DNA of 64,000 nt. It comes from a virus. How positions within the stretch are numbered: the stretch's first letter is position 1; each line of letters starts with the position of its first letter. Shown here piece by piece: positions 3 to 57,562 of the stretch. The translations under genes and the position numbers were made by a program. A model generated the notes under the pieces. The model had not been told where the DNA came from and did no database searches. It saw only the letters and a list, made by a program, of their open reading frames with translations. Location: IMG/VR virus record IMGVR_UViG_3300028864_000014, positions 62,001 through 126,000 of that record; one strand, given 5' to 3'.

Positions 3-236
3 AAAAATAATAGTGGTAAAATAGTAGCATCAAAAAAATCAGGAGTTGGTGTTACTTATATGATAAAGTATAATAATATACCTGAGTATTTAAAAAAATA
101 TTTTGTTAGTTTTAACTTTACAAATGACGCAGAACATAAATATATGAGAGCAATAAAAAGACATAACACAATTGAATTCATAGGATCAAAAGAAGAATGT
201 GAAATTAAAATATCAACAAAAAAATATAATTTATAA
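3..236 (+). CDS. C-terminal part of a small hypothetical protein (5' end outside window)
   Basis: The frame is open from the first bases of the window and closes at TAA 234-236, giving at least 77 residues. No known domain is recognised. The protein ends in KKYNL, the K-[FY]-N-[IL] ending shared with eleven other small proteins here. Its stop overlaps the next start (TAATG), so the two are probably cotranslated. Function unknown. Confidence 0.7.
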   Translation, partial: KNNSGKIVASKKSGVGVTYMIKYNNIPEYLKKYFVSFNFTNDAEHKYMRAIKRHNTIEFIGSKEECEIKISTKKYNL

Positions 237-679
237 TGATAATACATTTCAAGGAATTTATAACAGAAGGATTTTTAAATATATTCAATAAAAAAAAAGA
301 ATCTATTGAAAATGATAATGAGAAAATTCTCAGAATGATTTATGATAAAGAGCCAGAACTACAAAAGTATAAATTTGAAGTAGATTCTTGGAATAGAAGA
401 GGAGATTTATTACCAAGAGAAAAAAGAAATGATGAAATAATAACCAACCTAAATGGAATTGATGTTATTTTTGATACAGTAACAAAAATTTACGAAATTT
501 CTATTGCGCCTAGATACGATTTTGATTTTTCTCTTAGAATACTCAATTTAATTGATGAAAATTATGACACACTTTCTCATAATTTATACAAATCTAGTAT
601 ATCAACAAAATCAATATTATTCACAGAAATGAGTGAAGAAAGAAAATTTGAATTAGACACAAAAAAATATAATCTATAA
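236..679 (+). CDS. Small hypothetical protein with capsid-targeting-like N-terminus and KKYNL end
   Basis: This 147-residue protein has no recognised enzymatic domain. Its start, MIIHFKEFITEG, looks like the T4 capsid-targeting peptide, and ITE|G fits the (I/L)-x-E|(A/G/S) cleavage consensus of the T4 prohead protease gp21. Its end, KKYNL, is the shared C-terminal tetrapeptide motif. The body is charged and lacks membrane segments. It overlaps the upstream gene by one base and is followed after one base by the next gene. Packaging into the head is inferred only from the peptide. Confidence 0.75.
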   Translation: MIIHFKEFITEGFLNIFNKKKESIENDNEKILRMIYDKEPELQKYKFEVDSWNRRGDLLPREKRNDEIITNLNGIDVIFDTVTKIYEISIAPRYDFDFSLRILNLIDENYDTLSHNLYKSSISTKSILFTEMSEERKFELDTKKYNL

Positions 680-680
680 G

Positions 681-1073
681 ATGAAAAAATTTGATGAATT
701 TATAAAAGAAGATGCATTTGCAACTATGGGAAACACAGGAGGAATGGGTGCTATTGTAGCTGCTCAACCAGGAAGTATTCCAGGATCTCAAGGAACTACT
801 GGTTCTGGTGATATTAGTCAGCCTCTTGCTACATATTCTAAACCCGTAGTAAATTTAAAAAGACATAAAAAATCTAAGAAAAATAAAATGAGAAAAGTAG
901 AATCATTTGATATTTTCATGAAAGAAGAAAATGAGATAATAGACAATTTCACTGCAAGATATTATGATAATTATGATGATGAAGAAGAACCAAGTTATGA
1001 AGTAAATATTCAAGATATTGAAGAAAATAATATTAAAAAAATTCAAATGTACGAAAAAGATGAAAATAAATAA
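681..1073 (+). CDS. CTS-like protein with Gly/Ser-rich linker and a second internal CTS-like peptide
   Basis: The 130-residue product starts MKKFDEFIKEDA, a capsid-targeting-like peptide. A Gly/Ser/Pro-rich stretch follows (about residues 17-50), then a basic patch RHKKSKKNK. Met70 then begins a second copy of the motif (MRKVESFDIFMKEE), and the C-terminus is acidic. This looks like a fusion of two CTS-bearing proteins, or one gene with an in-frame internal start at 888. No enzymatic function is recognised. It overlaps the following broken gene by 14 bases. Confidence 0.7.
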   Translation: MKKFDEFIKEDAFATMGNTGGMGAIVAAQPGSIPGSQGTTGSGDISQPLATYSKPVVNLKRHKKSKKNKMRKVESFDIFMKEENEIIDNFTARYYDNYDDEEEPSYEVNIQDIEENNIKKIQMYEKDENK

Positions 1074-13723: not shown

Positions 13724-14626
13724 CTAATCAAATTTTTTCTTCAATTTTATATCTATATTACTCAAATATCCAGTTTTTATATGAACGTCATTTTCATCAT
13801 CATCAATAATATCATCAGTATCATATTCAAAATCAAAAATAAATAAGTCATAATCTTCTCTTTCTTTTGGTAATTTATCAAAATCATTATTCTTACTCAA
13901 ATACATATCATCATAATTCCAACCAACTACCAATTTATCTAATTCTTTATTTTTAATATTTAGTGGTTGATTATCTTCTATCATACCAGAATATTTAGAT
14001 GATTTATCTTTTTTGTATCCTCTCCAATATAAACAATAACCATGATTTATTTTTTTAATCGGATAATTAATAATACTATTAATCCATTCATCATCCTTTA
14101 TAATTTTAAATCCATCTTGAACATATATTTCTCCAAATAGTTCTTTTATTTTAGGTATGAATTTTTTAAGAAATTCAGGAATTGTCAATCTAACTCCATT
14201 ATAATATCCACCATCACTATCAAACCATCCAGAGTCTTTCAATCTTTCTATTTTTGATTTAATTATTATAAATTTTTTAGTATACTTACTAATATTTTTT
14301 ATTTTTTGAGTTTTTATCAATTCTTCATTTTCGTGAAACCATATTCGTTTTCTTGATCCATAACTTCCTACTTCAATTGAAGGGAATGCAAAAGGAGAAA
14401 TCTTATAATTATCACTTATTTTATCTCCATCTAATTCTAACTTAAATAAGGTAACAGGAGAATCACCAACATAATGATTCATACTTTTATTTCTTGTAGT
14501 TGAAATATTTGTAAATTTATAAGATGATATTGAATTTGTATTTAATATATATTCACACTTACTCAAATCAAATATATGATATAAACTACCCAATTGCTTA
14601 CCTTCATAACATTTTAAATACTTCAT
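13724..14626 (-). CDS. CTS-bearing protein with ADP-ribosyltransferase-like fold
   Basis: The 300-residue protein starts MKYLKCYEG, a capsid-targeting-like peptide (CYE|G fits gp21-type cleavage). The next about 100 residues (SLYHIFDLSKCEYIL, ISTTRN, TLFKLELDGDKISDNYKISPF, then HENEELIKT) follow a pattern seen in phage proteins of ART-like fold: a YH strand, an S/T-R-N strand, an LDGDKLS..YKI segment and an E-rich strand. The remaining half is unrecognised. T4 packages the ADP-ribosyltransferase Alt in its head, so an injected modifier is an attractive inference, but catalytic activity is not demonstrable from sequence. Confidence 0.6.
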   Translation of the reverse strand: MKYLKCYEGKQLGSLYHIFDLSKCEYILNTNSISSYKFTNISTTRNKSMNHYVGDSPVTLFKLELDGDKISDNYKISPFAFPSIEVGSYGSRKRIWFHENEELIKTQKIKNISKYTKKFIIIKSKIERLKDSGWFDSDGGYYNGVRLTIPEFLKKFIPKIKELFGEIYVQDGFKIIKDDEWINSIINYPIKKINHGYCLYWRGYKKDKSSKYSGMIEDNQPLNIKNKELDKLVVGWNYDDMYLSKNNDFDKLPKEREDYDLFIFDFEYDTDDIIDDDENDVHIKTGYLSNIDIKLKKKFD

Positions 14627-14648
14627 TTAGTTATTTATTTAATTTATA

Positions 14649-15074
14649 TTAAATATTGAATTTGCCTGCTATTGAATATAACTCAATATCAGATTCTTTC
14701 AAATTACGAATAATTTCAATCGCATCATTATAATATTTAACATCAAATGTAACAGAAAAATAATCCCAATAATTATCAATATGAGATTTATATGGCTCAA
14801 TTATAATATTATTTTCTATCAATTTATTTATAATTAAATCTGAAATAAATTCTATTTTAGGATCAAAATCATATGCAGTGAAACCTATACAAATTTTATT
14901 TTTATTTTTATTAATACTTATATAATTTTGATTTTTTTTATAATCATTACCTTCAAATTTAATTTCATTTTTTGATATGAAACAAGAAAAGTTATTATTT
15001 AATTTAAGACGCAAAGTATTTAATAATTCTGCTGAAAAAAATTTACTTTCGAATATTTTAAAATTTTTAATCAT
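14649..15074 (-). CDS. Small ORFan with CTS-like start and KFNI end
   Basis: ATG 15074 (MIKNFKIFESKFF) is chosen. A longer reading from 15152 would overlap the upstream gene and add an unrelated hydrophobic leader. The 141-residue product has the CTS-like start (IFE|S) and ends GKFNI, encoded AAA-TTC-AAT-ATT, so the motif is kept although the codons differ from other copies. No domain is recognised. It sits between two ART-like genes. Confidence 0.7.
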   Translation of the reverse strand: MIKNFKIFESKFFSAELLNTLRLKLNNNFSCFISKNEIKFEGNDYKKNQNYISINKNKNKICIGFTAYDFDPKIEFISDLIINKLIENNIIIEPYKSHIDNYWDYFSVTFDVKYYNDAIEIIRNLKESDIELYSIAGKFNI

Positions 15075-15084
15075 ATTTTTCTTT

Positions 15085-15438
15085 TTATTCGTAAATTGAT
15101 TGTCCATGTTTATCATTATGTAAATCATGAATAGCAACAAAGTAATCACCACTAATATACAATGAATCCAATTTTATATACATATTAAAAATTACAGGAG
15201 TTTTAGATCCTGTCATCAAACTATATCTTCTGGCAATATCTATATCAGGAGAAAACCAAGTTCCATTTTTAAATTTACCTGTTCTTATTATTTTTTTTGA
15301 ATTCTCTCTATTTGTACCATGATACAATAAAATATATACATCACCGTCGATATACATTTTTTCAATTCCTCTATCAGTAACATTTTTTAAGTATTCATCT
15401 GACAAATGATTCTCATATATTTTAAATTCTATTATCAT
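15085..15438 (-). CDS. CTS-bearing ADP-ribosyltransferase-like small protein
   Basis: The 117-residue protein starts MIIEFKIYENH (CTS-like). The body contains LYHGTNRENSKKIIRTG, then GTWFSPDIDIARRYS, then a PVIFNMYIKLDSL strand. This is the ART-fold order: HGT with the conserved His, a W-F-[ST]-x-D turn, and A-x-x-Y with the conserved Tyr. The third catalytic position (Glu/Gln) is not clear near FVAIHDLH. It is first in a minus-strand run with two other CTS-bearing genes. It probably binds NAD or a related ligand, and injection with the DNA is inferred. Confidence 0.65.
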   Translation of the reverse strand: MIIEFKIYENHLSDEYLKNVTDRGIEKMYIDGDVYILLYHGTNRENSKKIIRTGKFKNGTWFSPDIDIARRYSLMTGSKTPVIFNMYIKLDSLYISGDYFVAIHDLHNDKHGQSIYE

Positions 15439-22796: not shown

Positions 22797-23144
22797 ATGA
22801 AGCACTTAAGATTATTTGAGAATGAGTTATCGTATAAATATAAAGTAGGTGATTATGTATTAATTAACTATGATACTAAATCTAAAACATTATCAAAGTT
22901 GAAGGATTTTGTAAATATTCATATAGGAAAAATACTGTTTATTGACGATAAAAGTTTAATTATTCAATATAATAATCCACCAGATAAATTGAATCATTTT
23001 TTTTCTGATAAAGTAGTAGGCAATAAAAATATTAAAAATTCTGTGTTTTTTTGGAATAAAATAAATACAATAAGAAGATTGGCAACAGAAGATGAAATAT
23101 CAGAATATGAAGTAGTTAAAAATACAAATAAATTTAATATATGA
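22797..23144 (+). CDS. CTS-like / SH3-like / KFNI small protein
   Basis: The 115-residue protein starts MKHLRLFENE (CTS-like) and continues with YKYKVGDYVLINY, an SH3-like or KOW-like first strand pair. It ends NKFNI. Its stop overlaps the next start (ATATGA). It is a paralogue of the next gene in its first 30 residues and last 5, with an unrelated middle. Confidence 0.7.
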   Translation: MKHLRLFENELSYKYKVGDYVLINYDTKSKTLSKLKDFVNIHIGKILFIDDKSLIIQYNNPPDKLNHFFSDKVVGNKNIKNSVFFWNKINTIRRLATEDEISEYEVVKNTNKFNI

Positions 23145-23482
23145 AACATTTGAAATTATATGAATCTAATCTCATACCTAAATATAAAGTAGGTGATTAT
23201 GTTCATTTAGGTATGGAGCCAGATTTTACTTATGATGATTGCTTAGGACAAATACTTAAAATAGATAAAAACGGATTCATAAAAGAACCTGAAGAAACAG
23301 ATTCAGATAAAAATCATGATTATTATATTAATACATTAAATCCTTACCCATATAAAGTTAAAATATTAGATGGTAAATTCGATGCAGAAGAAGGTTTAAT
23401 AGATAGATATCTGAATAAAGATGAAATAGAATATTTTGAGTATTTATTAAAGAATAATGATACTAAAAAATTTAATATATGA
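23141..23482 (+). CDS. CTS-like / SH3-like / KKFNI small protein, paralogue of upstream gene
   Basis: The 113-residue protein starts MKHLKLYESN (LYE|S fits a gp21-type site). It then has PKYKVGDYVHLG and a second KVKILDGKF strand, suggesting a small SH3-like barrel. It ends KKFNI and overlaps the next gene by four bases. Function unknown. Confidence 0.7.
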   Translation: MKHLKLYESNLIPKYKVGDYVHLGMEPDFTYDDCLGQILKIDKNGFIKEPEETDSDKNHDYYINTLNPYPYKVKILDGKFDAEEGLIDRYLNKDEIEYFEYLLKNNDTKKFNI

Positions 23483-25486: not shown

Positions 25487-25924
25487 TTACAAGTTAAATT
25501 TGTTCGCATTTCTTATTAAATTCAATTCTTCAATAATAATTTTTTGTTTTTCTGTTATATTTCCATAAATAGTAAATGGTGAATTGACATTAATTCTATA
25601 TTCAATATTAGGATAATTTTTTAATATTAATGATAATATCACAAATTCTTTTTCTTTGTGTTGTAGTGTTCCTTTATATCCAACAGTACATTCATGAACT
25701 TTATCAATAATACCTGTACATCCTTCTACAATTGGTATGAATTCAAATAAACTATTATCATAACCATAATTAAAATTAAATTTAACTACTTTACCAGGAG
25801 CTAACAAATCTGTAATAAATTTTTTTATTTTATTCTGGTTTCCATTATAATAAATCATCAAATCATTTAAAATTAATGTTGTTTCATTTTCTACATTCTC
25901 AAATACTTTAAAATTTGTTATCAT
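25487..25924 (-). CDS. CTS/KFNL small protein, paralogue of 25921-26343
   Basis: The 145-residue protein starts MITNFKVFENVEN and ends ANKFNL, encoded AAA-TTT-AAC-TTG. It aligns with the upstream gene (TLILNDLMIYYNGNQNKIKKFI versus TIILNDVIDYFDGDDDSIRNFI; NSPFTIYGNI versus NSPTTIYGYV). Function unknown. The two genes overlap by four bases. Confidence 0.72.
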   Translation of the reverse strand: MITNFKVFENVENETTLILNDLMIYYNGNQNKIKKFITDLLAPGKVVKFNFNYGYDNSLFEFIPIVEGCTGIIDKVHECTVGYKGTLQHKEKEFVILSLILKNYPNIEYRINVNSPFTIYGNITEKQKIIIEELNLIRNANKFNL

Positions 25925-26343
25925 ATATTAAATTTTTTTGCTTCTCTTTTTATATTTATATCATTAACAATTTTTTTAATTTCATCAGGAACATAGCCAT
26001 AAATAGTAGTTGGAGAATTTGTGTCTACATCATGATCATATTTTATTCTTTTTAATATTATTGTTAAATATATATAATGAAATTCATTACTAAATCCATA
26101 TGATCTACCTCGTATTACACCTTTGTGATGTTTATTTGAATGCATAAAATTGGTTACTCCATTAATCATCATGGTACATTTTTTACAATCAAATTCAACT
26201 ATATTGTTATCATTATAATCAAGTAATTTAAATATGAAATTTCTTATTGAGTCATCATCACCATCGAAATAATCTATTACGTCATTTAAAATTATTGTAA
26301 TCTTATCTTCTGAGTTCTCAAATATTTTGAATTCTGTTATCAT
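25921..26343 (-). CDS. CTS/KKFNI small protein, paralogue of 25487-25924
   Basis: ATG 26343 (MITEFKIFENSED) is chosen over the Met nine codons upstream because it restores the CTS-like start found in the paralogue. The product is 140 residues and ends AKKFNI. It has a CKKC pair near residue 60. No known domain. It is the first gene of a six-gene minus-strand run and is divergent from the recombination nuclease gene. Confidence 0.72.
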   Translation of the reverse strand: MITEFKIFENSEDKITIILNDVIDYFDGDDDSIRNFIFKLLDYNDNNIVEFDCKKCTMMINGVTNFMHSNKHHKGVIRGRSYGFSNEFHYIYLTIILKRIKYDHDVDTNSPTTIYGYVPDEIKKIVNDINIKREAKKFNI

Positions 26344-41193: not shown

Positions 41194-41583
41194 ATGAACT
41201 ATTTAAAAACATTTGAAAAATATGATAACTCTGATATTGATGATATTTTAAATCAGATTTCAAAATTCATAAAATCTAATTTGCGAAATCTATGGATATC
41301 TAATGATGAAATAAAAATATATATTAGAAAATCTAAAAGAAATTTTAAAGGTAATATGTATGATTTTTTTGATTTTGCTAGTATAGATGTAACTGAACCA
41401 AATAGTGGATTGTTCACAAAAATACTTAAAAAATTTGAAGAAGAATACCCAGATAAAAAAATATTTATTGAATCTGTATTAACTGAAAGATTTGCAGATT
41501 ATATTAAAAATGTTTTAAAATTTGAAGAAGAAACTCCAAATTATAGCAACAATTTTTATAAAATAAAAAGTAATATAATATAA
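41194..41583 (+). CDS. CTS-bearing GNAT-like protein
   Basis: The 129-residue protein starts MNYLKTFEKYD, a CTS-like peptide. The body resembles a small GNAT-like fold found in phage genomes: FFDFASIDVTEPNSGLFTKILKKFEEEYP, then IFIESVLTERFADYIKNVLKFEE. Usual GNATs have R/Q-x-x-G-x-G/A here; only N-S-G-L-F remains, so acetyl-CoA binding is uncertain. It overlaps the next gene start by one base and sits among virion genes. Confidence 0.62.
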   Translation: MNYLKTFEKYDNSDIDDILNQISKFIKSNLRNLWISNDEIKIYIRKSKRNFKGNMYDFFDFASIDVTEPNSGLFTKILKKFEEEYPDKKIFIESVLTERFADYIKNVLKFEEETPNYSNNFYKIKSNII

Positions 41584-45331: not shown

Positions 45332-45802
45332 TTAAAATCTTCTAATAATAGTTTTTCTTTTTTGAGGTTCTATTGCAGGTTGTGAATAAGGTTCAAAAGA
45401 TTTATTGTCATTATATTCATCAGGAAAAAATTTATCATTGTCTGTATTATGATGTCTTTTTTTAGGCTCAAAGAAAGAATCATTACTCTCTCCTTTTTCT
45501 TCATCTCTCTTTAATCTTTGATTTATAAATTCTCTAACATAATTGTGTGCATCTTTCAAATCATCTTTCTTTTTATTTCTCAATCTTACACTTTCTCCAT
45601 CTTTATTTTTTTTGAAAATTTTACATATAAAAAAACCGCCTTTTTTCTGTATTCTTGCGAAGTAATATGGCTCAGAATTTCCTGATTTATATTTTATAAT
45701 TCCACCAAATACTGTTGGATCATATTTAGCTTTGCCACTAGTGAATAATTTATCATCTATAATATTGTCTTTCCAAGTTTCAAATGTTTTAATATTTTTC
45801 AT
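45332..45802 (-). CDS. CTS-bearing hypothetical protein with charged tail
   Basis: The 156-residue protein starts MKNIKTFETWKDN. A beta-rich first half (GGIIKYKSGNSEPYYFARIQKKGGFFICKIF) is followed by a long polar, Lys/Glu/His-rich tail (KKRHHNTDNDKFF) that is probably disordered. Not recognised. Confidence 0.62.
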   Translation of the reverse strand: MKNIKTFETWKDNIIDDKLFTSGKAKYDPTVFGGIIKYKSGNSEPYYFARIQKKGGFFICKIFKKNKDGESVRLRNKKKDDLKDAHNYVREFINQRLKRDEEKGESNDSFFEPKKRHHNTDNDKFFPDEYNDNKSFEPYSQPAIEPQKRKTIIRRF

Positions 45803-56884: not shown

Positions 56885-57562
56885 ATGAAAAAGAAAATAG
56901 TAATATTCACTGGTGCTGGAATAAGTGCAGAAAGCGGAATTCAAACTTTCAGGGATTCTGACGGACTTTGGGAGCAATATGATGTAAAAGACGTTGCAAC
57001 TATTGATGGTTGGAGAAAAGATAGACAATTAGTTTTAAAATTTTATAATGAAAGACATAAACAATTAGATACTGTAGAACCTAATTCAGCTCATTACTTT
57101 CTTGCTGAATTGGAAAAAAAGTATGATGTTCAGATAGTTACTCAAAATGTCGACGATCTCCATGAGAGAGCAGGAAGTACAAATGTTCTACATCTTCATG
57201 GACAATTAACAAAGATGAGAGCATTTAATAATTTTACTGTTTATGATTGGCCAAAAGATTTTGACATACAAACAGATAGTGTGGATGAAAATGGCGATAC
57301 ATTAAGACCACATATTGTTTGGTTTGGAGAAGCTGTTCCAAATATGGGTAAAGCTGAAAAAATAACAAAAGAAGCAGATATACTTATTGTAATTGGAACA
57401 TCATTACAAGTTTATCCTGCAGCAAATTTATTATATAAAGCAAATTTTAGAGCACCTATATATTATATTGATCCTTCTGATTCTGATATTGGTATAGATA
57501 TTAAAAATTTTACTCATATAAAAGAAACAGCAACAGAAGGAGTTAAAAAATTAAAATTGTGA
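56885..57562 (+). CDS. cobB: Sir2-type NAD-dependent protein deacylase
   Basis: The 225-residue protein has the sirtuin motifs TGAGISAESGI (9-19), FRD (22-24), TQNVDDLH (86-93), the catalytic His in LHLHG (His105), HIVWFGEAVP and IVIGTSLQVYPA. Tyr54 and Arg57 (FYNER) are spaced as the Y-x-x-R pair that binds succinyl/malonyl groups in class III sirtuins, so desuccinylation is likely. The two CxxC pairs of the zinc module are absent, with a shorter insert instead. It could modify host enzymes or remove host NAD-linked marks. It overlaps the next gene by one base. Confidence 0.92.
   Translation: MKKKIVIFTGAGISAESGIQTFRDSDGLWEQYDVKDVATIDGWRKDRQLVLKFYNERHKQLDTVEPNSAHYFLAELEKKYDVQIVTQNVDDLHERAGSTNVLHLHGQLTKMRAFNNFTVYDWPKDFDIQTDSVDENGDTLRPHIVWFGEAVPNMGKAEKITKEADILIVIGTSLQVYPAANLLYKANFRAPIYYIDPSDSDIGIDIKNFTHIKETATEGVKKLKL

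Follow-up and report, generated by a model that had tools for sequence, protein, structure and literature searches.

The gene at positions 13724-14626 of the DNA analysed here encodes, according to structure prediction, a protein of the ADP-ribosyltransferase (ART) fold, and its family carries the signature H (strand 1)/S-x-x-R/E-x-E. On balance we lean towards the reading, as modestly probable, that this protein is a head-packaged and injected ART which works like Alt of phage T4 and belongs to a different family.

The DNA analysed (the window) comprises 64,000 bases, i.e. bases 62001-126000 of a 235,318-base virus record (IMGVR_UViG_3300028864_000014; the contig). The source of the ART gene is a very large tailed phage (giant bacterial virus). 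The 636-kb phage LR756504 is a relative (tail sheath 36-50% identical), and the tail sheath with its adjoining genes shows about 30-50% identity and conserved gene order between the two. A terminase, a major capsid protein (Gp23-type) and an S77 prohead protease were searched for on the contig and none was found, hence the genome is probably incomplete. Two more IMG/VR contigs carry the DNA of the three genes described below with at most one mismatch.

The three open reading frames named in an earlier, sequence-only reading of this DNA are all present, as a run of minus-strand genes in the order 15438-15085 (117 aa), 15074-14649 (141 aa) and 14626-13724 (300 aa). Their features are as follows.

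15085..15438, minus strand: 117-aa protein matching the N-terminal half of the ART-PolyVal domain (PF18760), without the strand-5 motif
15412..15438, minus strand: start peptide (tag) MIIEFKIYE, by the tag pattern
14649..15074, minus strand: 141-aa ORFan with the tag MIKNFKIFES (start at 15074) and the end GKFNI (at 14649), without a family match in Pfam, PHROG or PADLOC
13724..14626, minus strand: 300-aa protein with predicted ART fold (AF2 model, PDB fold matches, conservation)
about 14057-14587, within 13724..14626, minus strand: predicted ART domain (about residues 14-190), followed by a low-confidence C-terminal tail (AF2)
14603..14626, minus strand: capsid-targeting-like tag MKYLKCYE, one of about 40 tagged starts

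Predicted fold, putative active-site residues and family of the 300-residue protein

An AlphaFold (AF2) model of the 13724-14626 protein was built on a 52-row family alignment, and reached a pLDDT of 90-98 over most of residues 10-190. When the PDB was searched with this model, all of ranks 1-9 went to Tpt1/KptA or DarT, members of the ART superfamily, at E-values of 0.016-0.19 and probabilities of 0.77-1.00; the best match had E=0.016, and the top two had a probability of 0.99-1.00. TreTu, an ART toxin, took ranks 11, 13 and 14. None of the matches reaches E<0.001, and the TM-scores are low, partly from the low-confidence tail of the query. Model and top fold matches thus predict the split beta-sheet core of an ART, and the structural check that the earlier reading had proposed came out in its favour for this protein.

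The product starts with MKYLKCYEG and contains Y16-H17, I41-S-T-T-R45 and E99-x-E101-E102. An alignment of 52 diverse members shows R45 and E101 without exception, and H17, S42, Y74 and E99 in at least 90% of the sequences; the family consensus is LYHxT...FLSTTR...LDGxKL...E-x-E-[DE]-R. Putative active-site positions are therefore conserved on strands 1, 2 and 5 (H17, S42/R45 and E99/E101, respectively). The ART-like pattern that had been read after MKYLKCYEG holds as to the fold but not as to the residues, which are H/S-x-x-R/E-x-E and not H...Y; likewise, the His that had been expected to persist in homologues does persist, whereas H...Y is not the conserved pattern. The family signature also differs from R-S-E of Alt, H-H-h of KptA and H-Y-D of ART-PolyVal.

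No match to the 13724-14626 protein alone was obtained in Pfam or PHROG, and single-sequence searches returned near-identical contigs only. The family was reached through a weak tblastn match in LR756504, which was confirmed by alignment, and then through a homologue in the locus L023 (44% identical over the alignment). Further members were found in Salmonella phage Sen-NF, Pseudomonas phages Lu11 and HRDY3, Dickeya phage JA13, Salicola phage SCTP-2, Alishewanella phage Slickus01 and Vibrio phage K566; in all, the family extends to about 80 phage loci, including 70 IMG/VR loci. None of the 52 members matches PHROG at E<=0.001, and there is no convincing NCBIfam/Pfam match among them (among Pfam families of ART type, Tox-ART-HYD1 came closest with E=0.0038, and a weak match of one member to it had E=0.016), the KptA family being absent from their Pfam matches. 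The family profile gave a weak match to DarT1 (E=0.28) among PDB sequences. Neither Pfam nor PDB sequence searches connected the family with Alt-type ARTs, in agreement with the earlier claim that these proteins are unrelated in sequence to T4 Alt. The Pfam accession PF18823, tried on a guess, had no bearing on the family. A scan of bacterial genomes with one narrow pattern found no family member, which does not imply absence. The family appears to be new in that it is absent from the libraries searched; the supplements of PMC9503650 may already list some members.

Tandem paralogues and polyprotein fusions occur in the family. A 1,659-aa phage polyprotein (locus L101, 583-5562) comprises three tandem ART domains and repeated ESKSLLKE linkers; six linkers are of the [NQ]-E-[SN]-[KN]-x-LLKE type, three of which each stand before an ART domain (SLLKE). 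Such polyproteins, with protease-like sites between tandem ARTs, appear to be new as well. At seven loci (L058, L059, L065, L064, L066, L067 and L070) the ART domain is C-terminal to nucleotidyltransferase-like N-terminal domains in polyvalent proteins, and the protein of L065 also has a Cu/Zn superoxide-dismutase-like domain; these domains were named by eye.

The probably truncated ART-PolyVal-like protein and the ORFan

The HGT and A-R-R-Y motifs noticed earlier after MIIEFKIYEN are present in the product of 15085-15438, as Y39-H40-G41-T42 and A69-R70-R71-Y72, and they lie above chance: the Pfam family ART-PolyVal (PF18760) matches with E=2.6e-5 against the whole library, at 25.4 bits and thus below the curated cut-off of 31.2 bits. 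The match spans profile positions 8-62 of 140 (protein residues 37-92), and the protein ends 25 residues later; the region of strand 5, with the third catalytic motif, is therefore missing, and the product is probably a truncated ART. The signature of ART-PolyVal is His on strand 1, Tyr on strand 2 and Asp on strand 5 (PMC5512222). The first two are found here (H40 in YHGT, Y72 in ARRY) whereas the strand-5 Asp is missing with the C-terminal half, and the gene stands alone, in distinction to the polyvalent phage effectors of this family (HYD2 clade). From its sequence, the protein probably represents the N-terminal half of the domain and is probably inactive alone.

A weak similarity to the 13724 family is visible over YHxT...IL..GKF (hhalign E=7e-4, probability only 26%). 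Single-sequence searches found no homologue of the 15085 protein beyond two near-identical contigs, and none in an annotated phage. A single-sequence AlphaFold model was discarded (pLDDT 41.7). A frameshift that would join the gene to the next open reading frame was also considered and rejected; the overlapping frame is open, but the continuation has a tagged start of its own and no ART-like C-terminus is visible in it.

The ORFan at 14649-15074, between the two ART genes, has the capsid-targeting-like start and the KFNI end that had been described, and its tag resembles MITxFKxFE starts elsewhere on the contig. The products of this gene and of 15085-15438 are probably further cargo like that of 13724-14626.

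Start peptides and protease-like sites

In T4, the first ten residues are enough to direct a protein to the head; positions 4 and 7 are the most important ones, and positions 8 and 10 determine cleavage. The proteases of giant phages cleave behind Glu and require little else (PMC9026906), and TFE is one of the sites after which cleavage takes place in 201phi2-1 (PMC5694885).

A tag of the form M-K-[YH]-[LI]-K-x-[FY]-E, with Leu/Ile at position 4, Phe/Tyr at 7 and Glu at 8, is found on about 40 otherwise unrelated genes of the contig, many of them for small and mostly uncharacterised proteins. The pattern occurs at 41 of 377 gene starts compared with 6 of 869 internal Met codons (p=1.7e-16), and 32 gene starts have the strict form. 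Synonymous codons and upstream DNA vary among the tags, which places the conservation at the protein level; an origin by duplication of DNA was rejected on the same grounds. The tag is also present on the homologues of the 13724-14626 protein in L023 and LR756504. Dozens of genes that are otherwise unrelated carry such start peptides, which are therefore no evidence for ART function. Examples of tagged and of T4-like starts in the window are as follows.

236..679, plus strand: gene with the canonical T4-like start MIIHFKEFITE|G (start sequence)
681..1073, plus strand: gene with the canonical T4-like start MKKFDEFIKE|D (start sequence)
22797..23482, plus strand: two adjoining tagged genes, MKHLRLFEN and MKHLKLYES (tag pattern)
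25487..26343, minus strand: two adjoining tagged genes, MITNFKVFEN and MITEFKIFEN (tag pattern)
41194..41583, plus strand: tagged gene, MNYLKTFEK (tag pattern)
45332..45802, minus strand: tagged gene, MKNIKTFET (tag pattern)

The contig tag is thus a short N-terminal peptide common to unrelated proteins, as is the capsid-targeting sequence of T4 internal proteins (MKTYQEFIAE-type, cleaved by gp21), and the two have in common a length of about 8-10 residues, an aromatic position 7 and a terminal Glu; the main tag ends in x-[FY]-E, whereas T4 has [LI]-x-E. The tag of the 13724-14626 protein ends in C-Y-E and does not fit the T4 rule, and P3 is Lys, Thr or another residue in more than half of the contig's tags. 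Of the seven clear starts of MKxxKxFE type in LR756504, six conform to [IL]-[FY]-E. Starts like those of T4 internal proteins are also found elsewhere on the contig (MIIHFKEFITE, MKKFDEFIKE, MKKYDQFINE, MKSFDQYINE).

The strongest support for a targeting function comes from the ART family outside the source phage. Among the unique N-terminal flanks, 44 of 49 carry [LIVFM]-x-E no more than 14 residues ahead of the ART domain, compared with 16% of background 14-mers. For [LI]-x-E at residues 5-22, the counts are 32 of 43 starts in the family and 82 of 248 among the other genes at these loci (p=4e-7; p-values for such flank enrichment are approximate, as related sequences are not independent). 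Examples of family starts are MRAQDFLIE|GATDV, MRISDFLTE|AASAI and MKFYELLNE|SLS, and the member of Vibrio phage K566 starts with MKKFNEFANELAE. Long fusion proteins have the same site directly before the ART domain (LNERATDI|VYHYT, LSEGISPI|VYHYT). Within Slickus01 and within Lu11, the ART paralogues share phage-specific starts. Packaging is not universal in the family, because the members of Dickeya phages are without the N-terminal extension. The capsid-targeting-like starts that had been proposed for the adjacent ART genes are therefore real, with N-termini of homologues that are T4-like far above background, but on the contig they are genome-wide and not specific to ARTs. The close association of an ART family with such starts across many phages appears to be new, whereas head-packaged phage ARTs as such, e.g. 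T4 Alt, are an established theme (PMC5512222, PMC9503650).

Some further starts were noted. Three Lu11 paralogues (Lu11_0200, 0202 and 0206; L045, 740-4849) all begin with MKIQLA[VL]A, which may be a targeting peptide for a protease of another specificity. In LR756504, a predicted prohead protease (185342-187636; L118) has a long tail of Y[ST]xY[IVL]AE repeats, which likely represent its own cleavage sites in a self-cleaving scaffold and would be consistent with a T4-like [ILV]-x-E specificity. A Nudix-like protein of the contig (10182-10670, minus strand; L006 10182-10670) has the T4-like start MVKFDEYIVE; its LR756504 homologue (174327-174761, 32% identical) is without this extension, and the comparison therefore suggests that a targeting peptide was gained. 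Two AAA+ ATPases (phrog_1297; contig 152263-155255, minus strand; L011 8263-11255) start with MIKKYDSY and MKTLKNYDHF, respectively, and adjoin a phrog_1314 protein with the start MIKKFNAF. Many tagged proteins have a small VGDYV-type domain right after the tag (contig 50-56 kb, 84-86 kb, i.e. window 22797-23482, 139-140 kb and 199-200 kb).

Proposed mechanism and alternatives

The fold and the conserved residues of the 13724 protein were computed; its packaging, trimming, injection, catalysis and target are what we infer. The first eight residues would act like a T4 capsid-targeting sequence and lead to loading into the prohead core, where the prohead protease would probably trim the tag after Glu; the mature enzyme would then enter the host together with the DNA and use NAD+ to ADP-ribosylate a host molecule early in infection. 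Phage ARTs are often packaged in the head (PMC9503650). With T4 Alt (Alt/VIP2, R-S-E clade), the 13724 protein would have in common the ART fold, a short N-terminal peptide resembling a capsid-targeting propeptide, and action at the start of infection; unlike Alt, it has His and not Arg on strand 1, so that the R-S-E signature is absent, and it is without recognisable sequence relation and of a different family.

The main weakness of this packaging reading is the protein's own tag, x-[FY]-E in place of [LI]-x-E, together with the failure to find its protease on the contig. As an alternative, the ART might be real but made in the infected cell and left unpackaged, with the MKYLKxFE start as a phage-wide signal for translation, stability or localisation unrelated to the capsid; a tag on so many small proteins could have another function, the residue at P3 is often at odds with the rule for the T4 protease, and the search for head genes on the contig found none. 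We regard this explanation as rather unlikely, given that the starts of homologues from many other phages have the canonical T4-like [LI]-x-E, that nearly all clear starts of this type in LR756504 fit the rule, that canonical starts (MIIHFKEFITE, MKKFDEFIKE and MKKYDQFINE) are present on the contig itself, and that the aromatic position 7 is a targeting position in T4 (PMC9026906). The ART-fold proteins might also be catalytically dead or non-enzymatic remnants, packaged as filler or encoded by decaying genes. This would best suit the 15085 protein, with its partial profile match, early end and homologues confined to two near-identical contigs, but is improbable overall, as no columns in the alignment of the 13724 family are more conserved than those of the putative catalytic residues.

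A role of the 13724 protein as RNA-repair 2'-phosphotransferase (Tpt1/KptA), in place of a transferase acting on host targets, is considered very improbable. Tpt1/KptA and DarT are the nearest solved folds and share the strand-1 His, but RNA-repair ARTs are of the H-H-h clade (PMC9503650), whereas in the 13724 family the second site is made up of Ser and Arg and the third of the invariant E-x-E. It also gives no significant sequence match to Tpt1/KptA or DarT, and the 52 members give no Pfam KptA match; tandem paralogues and polyprotein fusions would suit effectors better than a housekeeping repair enzyme. KptA itself we take to belong to the H-H-h clade.

Beyond the packaging reading for this one protein, we tentatively propose, with slightly less than even confidence, a widespread and uncatalogued family of phage ARTs delivered from the head, which in giant phages would be part of a cargo of dozens of injected proteins that share an N-terminal code peculiar to the phage, and which some phages would make as a tandem ART polyprotein cut by the prohead protease. 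If so, T4 Alt and the catalogued phage ARTs would greatly understate how common and how varied head-delivered ADP-ribosylation is, and a short code in the sequence would be enough to predict which of the many uncharacterised proteins of giant phages enter the host when infection begins.

Two other gene sets of the contig were noted. PADLOC gave no result. A sirtuin-like protein, i.e. another NAD+-using enzyme, is encoded at window positions 56885-57562 (plus strand; named by eye from its motif), and about a dozen paralogous genes for proteins of 130-170 aa form a tandem array at contig positions 216157-222409 (L014, L015), with starts of the form M[ST]KEELSxWFWxKFNSCYPV.
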